Source: a virus. Taken from it: a stretch of 64,000 bases of DNA. Both the position numbers and the translations under genes were made by a program. Within the stretch, counting starts at the first letter, position 1; every line of letters starts with the position of its first letter. This document shows positions 16,043 through 61,417 of the stretch, piece by piece. The stretch lies in the IMG/VR virus record IMGVR_UViG_3300024317_000004, positions 1-64,000 of that record; one strand, 5' to 3'. A model generated the notes under the pieces. That model ran no database searches and had not been told where the DNA came from. It was given only the letters and a program-made list of their open reading frames with translations.

Positions 16043-17187
16043 AGTACAAGCATCAAACTTGGCGTAAATTGTACATCAAGGAAGAGGGTGCTTTTGCGAA
16101 GCTCCCGTTCACCGCACGTGCCTACGCGAAACAGCTCATGCTTCTCTGTGATGGTGCGGGTCGGATTCATGTGGGCAATGGAGACGACTGCGTCAAGCTA
16201 CTCGTAGAGACGGCTGGATTCCGTATCGGTGCCACGCGTGGAGACCGTCGGATGATGAGCACGATGTTCCCTATGCTCTTCGAAGAGGGCTACCTGGTTC
16301 ATCGAAGTCCTTACGTTGTCATTCGAAACTTTGTAGCAGCTCAGCGCAAGTGGTCCGACGACGAAGAACAACCCCCCGGCTCTGACGATTCGTCCACGAT
16401 CGTTCCACCATCCAGCAATGAAGCTGCAGCGAACCCACCACGAACCGGTAATGAAGCTGCAACGACCGAGCAACGACCGAGCAATGACGGTGCAACGAAC
16501 GGGGAACGAACGGGGAACGAACCGACCACTGAACAAGAGCTAAGTACGCTAAATCATTCAGATGACGTTGCTAGCGCGCACACGCGCGCGCTCAGTTCTG
16601 ATCTGAGTAGTTCTGATCTGAGTAGTTTTGAGATGAAGGGGGTGCAGGGGGAACAACAGCAGCCGATCGATAAGCCAGAGACCGATCCGGCAATCACTCC
16701 GGCATCTGGCGATGCCTCCGCGCCGCACAAAAAAACAAAGCGCCGAAAGCCCAAAGCCCCTGCCCCGGAAGTCCCGATCCCTGAACCGGGCACGGTTGCC
16801 AGGTCAGTCTACGACGCGATCGTTAACGACCCGATCCTGGGACCGATCACGGCAGGCCCTGCTGACTTCGCCGTACGCATCACTCACCCGGACGCATACC
16901 CAGGCGTCAACGTGCTGGCGGAAGTCCTACGCGCCGCAGAGCACTACGCTCGCGGCAAGCGGGTCTACACCGATGGCCGCAGAACGCTTGCCAACTGGCT
17001 TCGCGGCGAGGCCGAAAAAGAAGCCAGTCGGCCCAAGCCAACTCCGAACCAACTAGCGCTTGGAGCCAAGAAAACCAAAGGCCCGCTTGATCCAGCACCC
17101 GCGAGCAAGTTCACGCGACCCGGCGAATCGTACGACCCGTTCAGTTTGTACAACGCCGATGGCAGCCCGAAGGGAGCGACGCAGTGA
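16039..17187 (+). CDS. phage replication initiator (O-like)
   Basis: A 382-residue protein. The N-terminal 110 residues resemble a winged-helix replisome organiser (KYKHQTWRKLYIKEEGAFAK, with a predicted HTH). A low-complexity middle (about 115-240) carries 11-residue repeats of SNEA/GNEA type encoded by 33-bp iterons. The C-terminal 120 residues are helical with a conserved-looking Trp-containing segment (YARGKRVYTDGRRTLANWLR) often seen in phage initiators. The next gene is a DnaC-like loader. This O-P-like arrangement, with the repeats inside the gene, points to the replication origin. Confidence 0.75.
   Translation: MKYKHQTWRKLYIKEEGAFAKLPFTARAYAKQLMLLCDGAGRIHVGNGDDCVKLLVETAGFRIGATRGDRRMMSTMFPMLFEEGYLVHRSPYVVIRNFVAAQRKWSDDEEQPPGSDDSSTIVPPSSNEAAANPPRTGNEAATTEQRPSNDGATNGERTGNEPTTEQELSTLNHSDDVASAHTRALSSDLSSSDLSSFEMKGVQGEQQQPIDKPETDPAITPASGDASAPHKKTKRRKPKAPAPEVPIPEPGTVARSVYDAIVNDPILGPITAGPADFAVRITHPDAYPGVNVLAEVLRAAEHYARGKRVYTDGRRTLANWLRGEAEKEASRPKPTPNQLALGAKKTKGPLDPAPASKFTRPGESYDPFSLYNADGSPKGATQ
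16414..16535 (+). repeat. four 33-bp repeats inside the initiator gene (candidate origin iterons)
   Basis: Copies start at about 16414, 16447, 16480 and 16513. The ATGA-containing core falls exactly 33 bases apart in the first three (ATG at 16418, 16451, 16484). Core AATGAAGCTGCA-R-CGA. The fourth is degenerate. The placing of repeats in an O-like gene recalls the lambda origin. Confidence 0.65.
16594..16638 (+). repeat. three 15-bp tandem repeats, AT-richer
   Basis: AGTTCTGATCTGAGT occurs twice in a row (16594-16608, 16609-16623), followed by a degenerate AGTTTTGAGATGAAG. It is AT-richer than the surroundings and lies 60 bases after the 33-bp repeats, as an unwinding element would. Confidence 0.6.
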
Positions 17188-54691: not shown

Positions 54692-56932
54692 ATGACCACA
54701 GCACCGAAGATTATTGCCCTGCAGTCTGCGGGCCCCGGAGTCCTGACGGCCGTTCTTGAGACCATCAACCAAGAGCCCAAGGGCTCTCAGCCAGACGTCC
54801 TCGACCTGGATCCGGCGCACTGGACGGTCAATGGCGCGCACCCAGTTGCGATCCACCGGTACTCATTGCCATGGTACGAGCAACCCAAAGCCGCAGACGG
54901 AACCTACGAGATCACGGTTCGTCACTCGGTGTTCTTAACGCTTGGGCAGCCTTTCGTAGACGCGACGTCCTACGCGGTTGCGTGCCCTTATGGGAACGCT
55001 GGGCTTGTGTTTGGCAATAGGACGACGTTCGCGTCGTGCATCAAGACCAACCAGTCTGCGTATGCAAAAGCATCCACCGCGCGGTTCGCGAACCTCGGGG
55101 TGTGGCTCGGCGACGGGGGCCCGATGGCCCTCAGTCCTTTGCCGGCGTACGAAGTCATTCGCGAGTCGGATGGCGCGGTCATCTACAAAGGAACCGCCGC
55201 GGCGGGCATCGATGACACTGGGTTAGCGGGGCCTAAGAGCGGGGAAATTGTCCATCGCCTGGATCTGAGCGCAGTCCCCGAGGGCGGCGCTTATTTTGTG
55301 AGTGTTCCGGGTATCGGCAGAAGCCGATCGTTTTGGGTTGGCGGCGACGTTGAGCGCAGGACCGCCATCGTTGCACTGCACAGCTTGACGATCGCTCGGT
55401 GTGGGCAGGAACTCAAGGAACCGTGGTCGCCATGGGCAAGGCCTGCGTGCCACCCACGCGTTACGGACGCGCGGTCACCCTATCCGGGCAGCGGGTTTAT
55501 TCAGGTACCCAGTGGCGCGCAGACATTCGAGATGCGCGGCATGCGGCACGACGCCGGGGACTTTGACAGAAACCCCAACCACGCCATCATTCCAATCTTA
55601 CTGCTTACCTACTTCGAAGCGTGGCCCAGTCACTTCACCGATCGGCAGTATGACATTCCGGAGTCTGGAAACGGCACGCCGGACCTGCTGGACGAGGCCC
55701 TTTGGGATGTCCTGGGGCTTGAGCATCTCCAGATTACCGATGCGAATGACCCGCTCAATGGCGGAGTTCGCAGCGGTACCGAGCAAGCGCGCCATCCAGA
55801 CTACGGAATTGATAACGCGGTACTCGACAAGGGTGTGTACTCCACGTGGGGGGTGGACGGTCAGGCTGATTCGCCCGGCGAAGGCTTTACCGCCTTTGCG
55901 GCCGGGATCTTTGCTCAGGCAAGTCGATTGGTTCGCCCCTACGACGCGGCACATGCAGACGATCTGCTCGGAAGAGCACGTCTCGCGTGGGGCTATCACG
56001 CCAGCCACAACACCGCGACGGCGATCAAGGCATACAATCTTTACGCCTCGCTTCAGCTCTATCTGACGACGGGCGAAAGCCCGTTCCATGATCTGTTCAA
56101 GGCGCAAGCGAACGCGATTCTCGTAAAGGATGGCAGTTGGCCCGTTCAGTATCGAGGCGGCAATCTGGCCGCGAAAGTGCAGACCGTGCACTTTGCCTCG
56201 TACACGCTACCCACATCACGCGCTGTCGATGCGACGTTGGTCGATGCGATCAAGGCACGCGTGATTCGGGAGGCCGACCAGGGCGGGTATCACGGAATTC
56301 ATCCGCTCACCGACCCATATCCCGTGGGTGCAACGAAGTTCCTGGGATACGGAGCACTGACCGCACCGGGCCGGAACGACGCAGATGCGTTTGCGAGTCT
56401 CTACGAGACCGACCCCGCCAAGAAGCAGCAGCGCATCAACAAGATGAGCCTGCTTGCTGACGGCATCCTTGGACTCAATGCCATGGGCATGAGCTATGTG
56501 GTCGGCATCGGGACCGATCAACCGAATTGCCCGGGGCACCTGGATAGCTTCTTCGCGGAGAAAGACACGCTCCACCCCATCCCAGGTGTCATGGTGTACG
56601 GGCCGAGCGAAGGACGCAGCGGCTACGACTACCAGATGACCATCACGAACAAGCTCGTTCCCTCCTACGAGCAACTGCCAATTGGCAGGCGTTTCGTGCA
56701 TGCCTGGGCATCGATTTTAAACGCGGAAGACACCATATGGGAGGTGCGCGTCTGGTTCGCCGTCCTGATGGCCTTCCTCCACGACGCCTCCAAAGACCCT
56801 GCACCCACGCTCCCGCCTCCGCCACAGCCGAGTACCGGCGTCACGCTCACAGCAGACCAATGCGATCGGTTTACACGTGCTGTTAGCGACCTCAACGCGA
56901 TCCGCGACGAGCTGGGCTTGAAAGCCAGCTAA
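54692..56932 (+). CDS. GH9-family glycosidase (endoglucanase-like)
   Basis: A 746-residue protein. The N-terminal 215 residues resemble the Ig-like CelD_N domain of GH9 enzymes. The catalytic domain has GMRHDAGDFDRNPNHAIIPI (Asp287 and Asp290, the DAGD pair), the diagnostic IPESGNGTPDLLDEALWDVL, and a late SILNAEDTIWEVRVWFAVLM whose Glu679 fits the general acid. The last 50 residues are a linker plus helix. No signal peptide is visible, so release at lysis or virion attachment is possible. GH9 enzymes cut beta-1,4-glucans. The real substrate is unknown. Confidence 0.82.
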   Translation: MTTAPKIIALQSAGPGVLTAVLETINQEPKGSQPDVLDLDPAHWTVNGAHPVAIHRYSLPWYEQPKAADGTYEITVRHSVFLTLGQPFVDATSYAVACPYGNAGLVFGNRTTFASCIKTNQSAYAKASTARFANLGVWLGDGGPMALSPLPAYEVIRESDGAVIYKGTAAAGIDDTGLAGPKSGEIVHRLDLSAVPEGGAYFVSVPGIGRSRSFWVGGDVERRTAIVALHSLTIARCGQELKEPWSPWARPACHPRVTDARSPYPGSGFIQVPSGAQTFEMRGMRHDAGDFDRNPNHAIIPILLLTYFEAWPSHFTDRQYDIPESGNGTPDLLDEALWDVLGLEHLQITDANDPLNGGVRSGTEQARHPDYGIDNAVLDKGVYSTWGVDGQADSPGEGFTAFAAGIFAQASRLVRPYDAAHADDLLGRARLAWGYHASHNTATAIKAYNLYASLQLYLTTGESPFHDLFKAQANAILVKDGSWPVQYRGGNLAAKVQTVHFASYTLPTSRAVDATLVDAIKARVIREADQGGYHGIHPLTDPYPVGATKFLGYGALTAPGRNDADAFASLYETDPAKKQQRINKMSLLADGILGLNAMGMSYVVGIGTDQPNCPGHLDSFFAEKDTLHPIPGVMVYGPSEGRSGYDYQMTITNKLVPSYEQLPIGRRFVHAWASILNAEDTIWEVRVWFAVLMAFLHDASKDPAPTLPPPPQPSTGVTLTADQCDRFTRAVSDLNAIRDELGLKAS

Positions 56933-58796: not shown

Positions 58797-59594
58797 ATGG
58801 AAAAGTGGAGTGAACCGAAAGGGCCACCACCGCGATGGCTCGACCTTGCCGACGAAGTCACGGCCGACGAGCCGAAGCCGCCTCGTGACCAGTTCGTCGT
58901 GGCGTGCATGGAGGCGTGCTTGCGACTCGATTGCAACCCGATGCAAGCGGCAGGCGTCACGGCCAACGTGATGAACGAGAGTGCGTGGGGGCAGTCGTAT
59001 CGCGGCAATAACTTGGGTGGCTGGAAGATCTACGAGCACTACGCGATCGCGTATCGCAAGGCTCATGGCAAAGGACCACGCTGGTGGCGCGGTCCCGGCA
59101 ACAAAGCGCCTGGGGCCACACCGAAAGACCTCAAAGGGGGCGATCCGCCGTGGTGCTTCTACAGAGCGTTCGAGTCCATCGAGGACTTTCTCGCGAGCTG
59201 GCTCAAGACGTTCGTTCCAGAGCCGCCCCTTGGTACGCCCTCTCGCGAGAGCAAAGGCGATCCCGCAACGGGTGATTACCGACTTGCGGGTGAACGATTT
59301 TGGGGCCGTCGGGCCAATTGGTTCGATGCCATGGTTGCGGCCGGGTACAAGGGCTCGCGCACCGAAGCGAGTCCCGAGCAAGCGATTGCCGAACATCACA
59401 GTTTGGTGCAGTCCGCCTTAACTCGCTGGGGGCAATCACGTTTAGGCGTGACGGCTGACGGAGCCTGGGGGCCCAAAAGCAAAACGGCCTGCGCCGCGTT
59501 TCAGGCTTGGCACGGACTGTCGGTCACGAACATTCTAGACGACGAGACGCTGGTTGCTTTGGTGCACAGCAAACAACAGCCCCAACCAGAGTGA
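58797..59594 (+). CDS. endolysin: glucosaminidase-like domain plus PG-binding domain
   Basis: A 265-residue protein. Residues about 30-190 resemble a lysozyme/GH73-like domain: ANVMNESAWGQSYRGNNLGG, with Glu61 as probable catalytic residue, then GGDPPWCFYRAFESIEDFLA. The C-terminal 70 residues form a peptidoglycan-binding domain (GVTADGAWGPKSKTACAAFQ). No signal peptide, so holin-dependent release is expected. ATG 58797 has GAGGCG upstream. Confidence 0.82.
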   Translation: MEKWSEPKGPPPRWLDLADEVTADEPKPPRDQFVVACMEACLRLDCNPMQAAGVTANVMNESAWGQSYRGNNLGGWKIYEHYAIAYRKAHGKGPRWWRGPGNKAPGATPKDLKGGDPPWCFYRAFESIEDFLASWLKTFVPEPPLGTPSRESKGDPATGDYRLAGERFWGRRANWFDAMVAAGYKGSRTEASPEQAIAEHHSLVQSALTRWGQSRLGVTADGAWGPKSKTACAAFQAWHGLSVTNILDDETLVALVHSKQQPQPE

Positions 59595-59606
59595 CCTGGT
59601 TGGGGC
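59579..59606. terminator. bidirectional terminator after the endolysin gene
   Basis: A perfect 11-bp stem GCCCCAACCAG (59579-59589)/CTGGTTGGGGC (59596-59606) with 6-base loop. It lies over the last codons of the endolysin. On the minus side it is followed by a T-rich stretch (TGTTGTTTGC), so it can also end transcripts coming from the gene at 60986. Confidence 0.7.
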
Positions 59607-60389
59607 CATTCCCTGTCCCTTCCGCTCCTTTGCAGTCCTGCCCCATCCGCTCCATTGCCATCGGTTGCAATGAGGCCCGTTCCTCTCGTAGCCCCTCCCG
59701 TCCTATCCATTCCACTCGGTTGCTGTCGCTTGCTCTCCCCTCCGTCCCCCTGCTTTGCCCGAGCCTTCGCCCGGCTCCGATGCAGCACGCTGCACCCGAG
59801 TCGAGCCACCGGCGAACCGGCGAACTCGGGGCCTTTGCGATCCTTTCCCCTGCTGTCCTGACCTGTCCGCATCCCATCGGCTCCCCTCCCCTCCCCAACG
59901 CTCCCCATTAGCGCTCGGGACGAGGCCCGGATTGCTCCGGGCGCCGTTGGGCTCCACTCCTGTCCGGTTCACTCCGTTGCCGCCCTTGCCTCTGCTTTCC
60001 GCTCCCCTCTGCCCCAATGCAGTCCGTCGTTTCCAACGCACTCGCTTGAATGCGCTCGAAACGGCGCTCGCGCGAACGCGATGCCGGCCATTCCGTTCCT
60101 CCCCGGCCCAATCATGTCATTCCCAGGCCGCTCCCATGCTCTGCAGTCGGCCCCCCTCCATCGCGTTCCGCTTCACCCCAGTACACATCCACTCCTCTCC
60201 CCTCTCCAAAGCACCTGAATGCTCTCGAGACGGGACCCGATCTCTCGGGACACGTCGCCTTTCCTCTGCGGTCCGTTCACTTGCTCTCCGGTGCCGTCCC
60301 ATCACTTCCTTTGCAGCCAACTCTCGTCCTGCCCACTCCCCGCTTTTCCTCTCCGCTCCACCCCTCTGCCGTCCGAAGTCTAAAAAGAA
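59607..60389 (-). repeat. 780-bp tract with a 5-bp period (GGA-rich on the minus strand)
   Basis: No gene. On the plus strand T recurs at every fifth base in the pattern T-(C/G)-C-N-N: 25 of the 29 pentamers from 59616 to 59760 fit. By eye there are about 56 TCC and only about 4 GGA triplets on the plus strand, where about 12 of each would be expected by chance. The transcript of the minus strand would be GGA-rich, broken by hairpins (TGCAG/CTGCA; CCCGGA/TCCGGG; CCGAGT/ACTCGG). The period of 5 excludes a coding explanation. Confidence 0.75.
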
Positions 60390-60986
60390 TTATGCGGCTT
60401 TCTTTGCTAGGTCGCCGTCCCAGCAAACGACCGCGAAAATCCCGAACGGACCACCACGCTGAACTCTGTAGTCGCCGAGACCGTTTCCGATGCCGGCCTC
60501 TTCGAGCAAGAGCCTGATAGTTGCTTCATCCAAGATCTCCGTACGCAACCGAAGATTGAACTTAGCGCTCCATTCGTCGAGCCGCGCACGATGTCTCATG
60601 ACGCGGCCTTTTGTTGCGGGAATTACGACCGCTCGGCTGTCAACCTCGAAGTCCTTTGCGCGAGTTTTTCGGTCCTTGAGATACAAGGGCACCATGTCTT
60701 CGCAAACCACGCACGCAGCGGGCACGAGATACTTTAAGGACTTGCGAGATCCTCGCTGTTTGTGTCCAGCGCCCATTTCGGCGATTGCGCGGCTAATCCC
60801 AGTACCTGCGATGCATAGTCCGCCCTTAGAGTCGCGATGCGTGCCTTTCTCGGCAATGTCTCGCGGCAACTCTGTGGTGATCTGCACGCGACGTGTTGAT
60901 TTTCCACTGTCCGCCTGCGCCTGATCGCCAAACTTGTGAATCAGCAACGGCGAAACGCCCTCGATCCAGACCTCAATCGTTTTCAC
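60390..60986 (-). CDS. phage protein of widespread unknown family
   Basis: A 198-residue protein. GTG start at 60984-60986 with GGAGG six bases upstream. N-terminal IEVWIEGVSPLLIHKFGDQA, middle FEVDSRAVVIPATKGRVMRH, C-terminal LLLEEAGIGNGLGDYR then GGPFGIFAV. I recall this layout (G-x-SPLL-x-H-x-F; SR-VVIPATKGR; G-L-DYR...GPFG-F) from many phage proteins with no function, and the glycine-rich end is reminiscent of RAMP folds. It is under a promoter with a palindrome and is flanked on both sides by the 5-bp periodic sequence. Confidence 0.72.
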   Translation of the reverse strand: MKTIEVWIEGVSPLLIHKFGDQAQADSGKSTRRVQITTELPRDIAEKGTHRDSKGGLCIAGTGISRAIAEMGAGHKQRGSRKSLKYLVPAACVVCEDMVPLYLKDRKTRAKDFEVDSRAVVIPATKGRVMRHRARLDEWSAKFNLRLRTEILDEATIRLLLEEAGIGNGLGDYRVQRGGPFGIFAVVCWDGDLAKKAA

Positions 60987-61078
60987 TTTGCCTCCATTAA
61001 GCCCTTTCGGGCCCCTTCCATTCCCCCGCTCTCCATCCCCACCACTTGCTCTCCTTCGTGTTCCAGTCCAACGCGCAC
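60987..61078 (-). repeat. 5-bp periodic leader of the gene at 60986
   Basis: The predicted 5' untranslated RNA (about 85 bases) also shows the period of 5. The plus strand has eight TCC triplets in about 85 bases. The last one (CCTCC on the plus strand, 60991-60995) is the Shine-Dalgarno of the gene. Confidence 0.6.
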
Positions 61079-61106
61079 ACTATACGTACTTTGTACGTAC
61101 AAGCAA
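61079..61106 (-). promoter_or_regulatory. promoter with TACGTAC palindrome for the 60986 gene
   Basis: Reading leftward: -35 TTGCTT (61101-61106), spacer 16, -10 TATAGT (61079-61084). The spacer is occupied by a perfect inverted repeat TACGTAC-TTT-GTACGTA (61083-61099). The same TACGTA core recurs in the promoter of the ribbon-helix-helix gene, so that protein is the likely binder. Confidence 0.6.
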
Positions 61107-61107
61107 G

Positions 61108-61272
61108 TTACTTCTTTACTTCTCGTAGCAATCGTCTTGCTTCGAACAACGCAATGCGTCTGACGAACGACGACACATCTTCACCTGATAATTCTGCGGC
61201 TTTCGCGAGATCTCGCTTTTCCGCTTCCGTGAGACGCAACTCGAGACGCGCCGACCGACCGGACTCAACCAT
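61108..61272 (-). CDS. ribbon-helix-helix DNA-binding protein
   Basis: A 54-residue protein: a short beta strand (SARLELRLTE), then two helices (AEKRDLAKAAELSG and EDVSSFVRRIALFEARRLLR), the Arc/MetJ-type ribbon-helix-helix fold. A -10-like TATGAT lies six bases before the ATG, so the mRNA may be leaderless. TACGTA lies in the promoter spacer. Probably it represses itself and the downstream gene. Confidence 0.75.
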   Translation of the reverse strand: MVESGRSARLELRLTEAEKRDLAKAAELSGEDVSSFVRRIALFEARRLLREVKK

Positions 61273-61300
61273 AGGCCAATCATACGGCTACCATACGTAC

Positions 61301-61417
61301 ATGGCCACGGCGATATCACGGAAGGTTACAGAAGCACGTAAAACGACGGCGCGGCTCAAGGAGCTTGGCTACAAGCTAGGGCAGTGGGTAGACGCCCCGC
61401 CAGCCGACGTGCCATAG
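61301..61417 (+). CDS. hypothetical 38-residue protein
   Basis: Starts MATAISRKVTEARKTTARLK and ends WVDAPPADVP. It is divergent from the ribbon-helix-helix gene. No Shine-Dalgarno, but the ATG lies within CCATACGTACATGG, the operator-like site. A small helical, basic protein if made. Three terminators follow. Confidence 0.4.
   Translation: MATAISRKVTEARKTTARLKELGYKLGQWVDAPPADVP

Follow-up and report, generated by a model that had tools for sequence, protein, structure and literature searches.

Introduction

VIPR is a recently described system, proposed to be a forerunner of CRISPR (bioRxiv 2026.04.26.720920), that comprises a phage RAMP protein and guide RNAs built from 9-16 YNNGG repeats with a 3′ tail (PMC13142463; bioRxiv 2026.04.26.720920). 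The NN pairs recognise double-stranded DNA with one base skipped, and the system is used between competing phages (PMC13142463). One part of the published description permits "a related consensus" for the triplet in others of the seven VIPR types, and a DNA-binding vap is reported for types II, VI and VII (PMC13142463). In the VIPR locus of the Escherichia phage SUSP1 the triplet is GGT or GGC, and a second gene, presumably vap1, directly follows vipr. A RAMP fold is also common to the backbones (Csm3/Cas7) of class 1 CRISPR systems, which have a 6-nt register and are recognised by an array together with multiple cas genes.

Here we describe a minus-strand locus in a virus sequence of 64,000 nt (the window; positions 1 to 64,000 of the 72,417-base IMG/VR record IMGVR_UViG_3300024317_000004) that is, with a probability of about 0.92, a phage-encoded VIPR system with a variant scaffold triplet. 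In this analysis the identification is based on a period-5 tract, the RAMP fold of the adjoining gene product, its homology to SUSP1 Vipr, the co-occurrence of tract and gene across the family, fixed triplets with variable NN pairs, and stem-loops between the runs. The locus shares with SUSP1 VIPR a homologous, phage-borne RAMP protein, a 5-nt unit consisting of a fixed triplet and a variable NN, one guide upstream and several downstream of the gene and on its strand, and putative 3′ tails. It differs from SUSP1 in its triplet (GSA), in having no sequence-conserved tail, in lacking a second gene directly after vipr, and in having an upstream ribbon-helix-helix gene with a shared operator-like palindrome. 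Compared with class 1 CRISPR-Cas, there is a single small protein, the unit is 5 nt with a fixed triplet, and neither a CRISPR array nor cas genes were found at the locus.

The period-5 repeat tract

A sequence-only reading of the window had described a tract of about 780 bp with a 5-bp period downstream of the gene, and the same period in the leader before it. Autocorrelation analysis of the tract (59607-60385) gave identities of 0.407, 0.429, 0.407 and 0.418 at lags 5, 10, 15 and 20, respectively, relative to 0.305 +/- 0.015 in dinucleotide shuffles (n = 1000), none of which was as high (0/1000; z 6.5 at lag 5). Lags 3, 4 and 6 were without excess. Across 780-bp windows of the whole stretch, the lag-5 excess was highest at the tract (0.110), with a mean of -0.015 (sd 0.022) and a maximum of 0.066 outside it. 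As plain autocorrelation gives no signal in a leader this short (60990-61075; z -0.2), the leader was scored with a motif trained on the downstream tract alone; its best in-phase run scored 14.8, relative to 5.2 +/- 1.7 for shuffles, with 1 of 5000 as high. Scanning the same motif over both strands of the window gave matches at essentially this locus only, all on the minus strand. The period in tract and leader and the minus-strand reading of the pattern were thus borne out, and a recount of the tract gave exactly the 56 TCC and 4 GGA triplets that had been reported for the plus strand.

On the minus strand, approximately 106 G-(G/C)-A-N-N units, framed by hand, form about seven runs of 8-23 units each, one in the leader and six downstream of the gene. 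Run boundaries were drawn from the sequence only, and the guide lengths are to be compared with the 9-16 units published for VIPR on that basis. The unit had been read as GGA every five bases, which is right as to the period; the repeated element is G-S-A-N-N, with GGA itself making up only 51 of the 106 units (GCA, 18; GGG, 12; GGC/GGT, 4). Position 1 is G in 91 units, position 2 is G in 81 and C in 21, and position 3 is A in 83 and a pyrimidine in 6, with A prevailing in all seven runs. These three positions are constrained, and positions 4 and 5 are mixed. As in VIPR, long putative non-coding RNA regions with pentanucleotide repeats of a fixed triplet and a hypervariable NN lie on either side of the gene; the triplet departs from strict GGY in all but the four GGC/GGT units.

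The vipr gene and its flanking sequences

The vipr gene (60390-60986, minus strand) starts with GTG, has a GGAGG Shine-Dalgarno sequence at 60991-60995, and encodes a 198-aa RAMP (Cas7-like) protein that matches phrog_4652, a family of unknown function (E 2e-17). Searches of Pfam, NCBIfam and PADLOC gave no family match. The sole significant PDB sequence match was 36PP, the SUSP1 Vipr protein (E 8e-4 with the single sequence, 5e-54 with the family profile), and hhalign against the SUSP1 protein gave 100% (E 1e-47). A fold search with the AlphaFold model (pLDDT 86.9) returned CRISPR Csm3/Cas7-type chains for all of the top 50 PDB matches (probability 1.00). The product is a small single-domain RAMP protein homologous to SUSP1 Vipr, and its glycine-rich C-terminus had been correctly read as RAMP-like. 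The tandem repeats detected in the window include none that resembles a CRISPR array; short repeats of 11/33 bp (GCAACGACCGA) at 16414-16525 apparently lie within an ORF.

A likely promoter of vipr and its guide RNAs (61078-61106, minus strand; TTGCTT-16-TATAGT) was identified by direct reading, with the palindrome TTGTACGTACAA in its spacer, and is absent from the list produced by a promoter scan. Five copies of TGTACGTA are present in the window, where 0.35 would be expected, including sites in the vipr promoter (61091-61102) and at 61294-61301, in the ribbon-helix-helix gene's own promoter. This gene (61108-61272, minus strand) lies just upstream of vipr on the same strand and encodes a 54-aa ribbon-helix-helix protein (TacA1/NikA-like; Pfam PF08681, E 1e-7; PF21983, E 1e-6), which is likely a regulator and possibly an accessory (vap-like) gene product. 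Since TGTACGTA is shared by both promoters, the protein may control both vipr and its own expression. The neighbouring genes examined encode an endolysin, the ribbon-helix-helix protein and an HNH nuclease. The portal and terminase proteins of the phage gave distant matches only, and a contig with a 98% terminase match (L008), from IMG 3300028072, is a fragment. Elsewhere in the window (54692-56932), a 746-aa ORF resembles a glycoside hydrolase (cellulase) by eye, which is unusual in a phage.

Predicted guide RNAs and tails

When the SUSP1 locus was read in the same way as a positive control, one upstream and three downstream guides were obtained, matching the published map (PMC13142463). In the window, seven guides (vrRNAs 0 to 6, all minus strand) are predicted. 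The leader guide, vrRNA 0 (61000-61069), has 11-14 GSA/NN units, with 1 of 5000 shuffles as good, and is predicted to end in a small hairpin, GGGGCCCGAAAGGGCUU (61014-60999). Downstream of the gene, vrRNA 1 (60260-60374) comprises 23 units in phase, which may be two guides in succession, and is followed by a predicted stem-loop tail (60210-60259) with a z of only -1.4. Next, vrRNA 2 (60095-60200) has approximately 19-21 units, whose phase slips by 1 nt near 60185, and a tail at 60026-60097 (z -2.1), and vrRNA 3 (59951-60025) has 15 units and a tail at 59906-59950 (z -1.6). They are followed by vrRNA 4 (59833-59904), with 7 + 7 units either side of a 1-nt slip at 59869 and a tail at 59759-59832 (z -2.4), and by vrRNA 5 (59678-59758), with 16 units and a predicted hairpin tail (59650-59677; CAUUGC...GCAAUG). 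The last guide, vrRNA 6 (59609-59653), has 8-9 units.

The stem-loops were predicted one by one, are unlike in sequence and have no common conserved structure, with z between -1.4 and -2.4 except for the last; a stem-loop is predicted after each run, in line with the hairpins noted earlier between the runs. The tail of vrRNA 6 (59575-59610), which is the likely transcript end, is a 16-pair stem (-26.2 kcal/mol, z -5.1). A bidirectional terminator had been placed near 59579-59606, and the strong stem stands; it is terminator-like on the minus strand only (59610-59575), and its T tract is weak. An Rfam search of the locus gave no match at the gathering score and no hammerhead; permissive matches to lncRNA models were taken as chance.

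Co-occurrence of vipr and repeat tracts in homologous loci

Homologues of the window protein with 23-29% identity are encoded by the phages LESphi2, phiHSIC, UmaThurman, ODay and Trine, and in each of these phages the strongest 5-periodicity adjoins the homologue. A blastn search of the locus against phages gave nothing, a single-protein search of viral_contigs gave no close relatives, and relatives in viral_contigs were found only with alignments as the query. The presence of the tract beside homologues was a check that the earlier reading had proposed. Of the 35 homologous loci, about 27 of which are distinct, 34 have their strongest 5-periodicity no more than 900 bp from the gene. The period-5 peak stands out plainly from the remainder of the locus, save in two loci with arrays running further out, and in the one exception (L025) a weak GGY run is still present. 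A homologue in a Planctomycetota MAG (L049, 4001-4500) is packed between genes with no guide tract nearby; homologues were found in 10 of 392 Planctomycetota genomes with the alignment of the window clade.

The asymmetric purine tract beside a lysis gene had also been considered as a site acting at the DNA level, whether a packaging signal, a centromere-like array or a replication-stalling tract. Its position among phage genes varies, however, from the lysogeny region in LESphi2 to the structural operon in phiHSIC and ODay, and what is constant in these unrelated phages is adjacency to one gene and its strand. Three fixed bases in five also suit an RNA that a protein repeat reads, and a DNA-level site is accordingly very improbable.

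On the gene strand of the homologous loci, the unit is GGY/NN nearly everywhere, in runs of approximately 9-18 units. In Planctomycetota L069 and L077, scaffolds that seemed to read GCC proved to be an artefact of strand, as these loci were not gene-oriented and read GGC on the gene strand. The scaffolds of L055 (GCN) and L058 are ambiguous or divergent and were left out as firm exceptions to GGY; L058 has a regular array (1850-2420) with a strongly repeated hairpin tail and a scaffold other than GGY. In the Gordonia phage Trine (L006, 4561-4850; the same in L026), the tails between guides resemble a tRNA 3′ half (GGGGTTCGACTCCCCGG), and ARAGORN called a degenerate tRNA in one of them; processing of the Trine guides by tRNA-processing enzymes is conceivable.

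These scaffolds bear on two further roles that had been proposed for the RNA. As a sponge, it would titrate a CsrA/RsmA-type protein by displaying GGA in hairpin loops, and the many GGA triplets, some as A-N-GGA, are compatible with this. However, GGA was found in periodic runs between the stem-loops and outside the hairpin loops, the homologues have no conserved GGA, their units (GGY, and GCA in phiHSIC) are not the CsrA core, and the tract accompanies a RAMP gene, which together leave the sponge hardly credible. The periodic runs and the accompanying RAMP gene count equally against a decoy for ribosomes made of Shine-Dalgarno-like purine repeats. GGA does resemble part of a Shine-Dalgarno sequence, but the GGC/GGT and GCA scaffolds of the homologues do not, and we regard this role as most unlikely. 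The remaining proposal, that the RNA is a scaffold for the RAMP-like protein encoded there, was essentially right. A tract on the strand of one adjoining gene, with three positions in five constrained and two hypervariable, corresponds to the guide RNAs published for VIPR (PMC13142463).

Possible scaffold switch or decay

The nearest relatives of the window Vipr are encoded in the IMG/VR loci L050, L051/L052, L053 and L054. Their five Vipr proteins are 43-51% identical to that of the window and form a clade with it (support 100/99), and their guide arrays likewise adjoin the gene; all have GGY/NN scaffolds, unlike the GSA of the window, whose guides are therefore not canonical. Because all five nearest Viprs are of the GGY type, the simplest account is that GSA arose on the branch leading to the window. 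A further non-GGY scaffold is found at the phrog_4652 locus of the Listonella phage phiHSIC, with three modules of 10 GCA/NN units, which share A at the third position with the window and differ in having C throughout at the second. As phiHSIC is distant from the window in the tree, its change is probably independent.

All 32 GGY-type Viprs compared carry tyrosine 50 and proline 175, and so do the other atypical proteins. In the window Vipr they are replaced (Y50H, P175V), along with a mostly conserved proline (P134A), and P175V falls in the G-loop region. The window triplet has shifted from GGY to GSA, probably in step with the protein. We put forward more tentatively, and at rather less than even odds, that the code has been switched, with the window Vipr reading GSA/NN in place of GGY/NN by way of Y50H and P175V, and with phiHSIC GCA as a second, independent switch.

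The main alternative to a joint change is that the locus is in decay, with its function lost and the departure from GGY a product of mutational drift. Decay would account for the loss of residues that are invariant or conserved elsewhere (Y50H, P175V, P134A), for the 1-nt slips within vrRNA 2 and vrRNA 4, and for a scaffold noisier (78-86%) than that of the sisters (up to 98%). Nevertheless, the third position has shifted to a single base in all seven runs (A in 83/106, a pyrimidine in 6/106), and drift would not focus on A; the 198-aa ORF is intact and models well, and the promoter/operator appears intact. We consider decay unlikely.

Target searches

The composition of the variable pair was compared with six codon frames and background, using the phage's own genes. 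The first variable base (A.28, C.24, G.38, T.10) resembles codon position 1 (A.24, C.23, G.39, T.14), and the pair is best fitted by codon positions 1-2 in the sense direction (log-likelihood -286.9; next best -289.7; background -293.9). Due to the small margin over the next frame and the purine-rich tract, this fit is suggestive only. Searches of viral_contigs and genome_contigs with exact 8-11-unit, 1-nt-skip patterns of vrRNAs 1, 2, 3 and 5 gave no convincing target, the few matches being attributed to chance as none extended beyond the pattern. A search with mismatches in seven related virus records was near the control level. No self-target with a 1-nt skip was found in the phage's own 72 kb, which was counted in favour of VIPR. 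The empty searches carry little weight, since other phages of the same host have probably not been sampled.

Discussion

By analogy with the published system, we infer transcription, filament formation, reading with a 1-nt skip, repression and a role in inter-phage warfare. A transcript running along the minus strand between about 61078 and 59575 would give rise to the Vipr (RAMP/Cas7-like) protein and approximately seven vrRNAs, separated by stem-loops that would serve as their 3′ tails. Each fixed G-(G/C)-A triplet would be bound by one Vipr subunit as a scaffold, leaving the two variable bases exposed, so that jointly the pairs would read double-stranded DNA as NN-x-NN-x, a gapped guide in which the skipped base x would usually be a codon wobble position. 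The resulting filament would most likely silence genes of competing phages or satellites.

The locus indicates that the supposedly fixed half of the VIPR guide, the protein-bound triplet, can differ from one related system to another, and it points to a few positions in the protein at which changes accompanied that of the triplet. The pairing of protein and RNA within the code thereby becomes directly testable, and the window system is a candidate for a natural orthogonal partner to the SUSP1-type system. If the code has indeed been switched, the guides of this phage and its relatives would be mutually unreadable, and VIPR systems could evolve new scaffold identities. Such variation would concern what is possibly a pre-CRISPR way of reading DNA by RNA.
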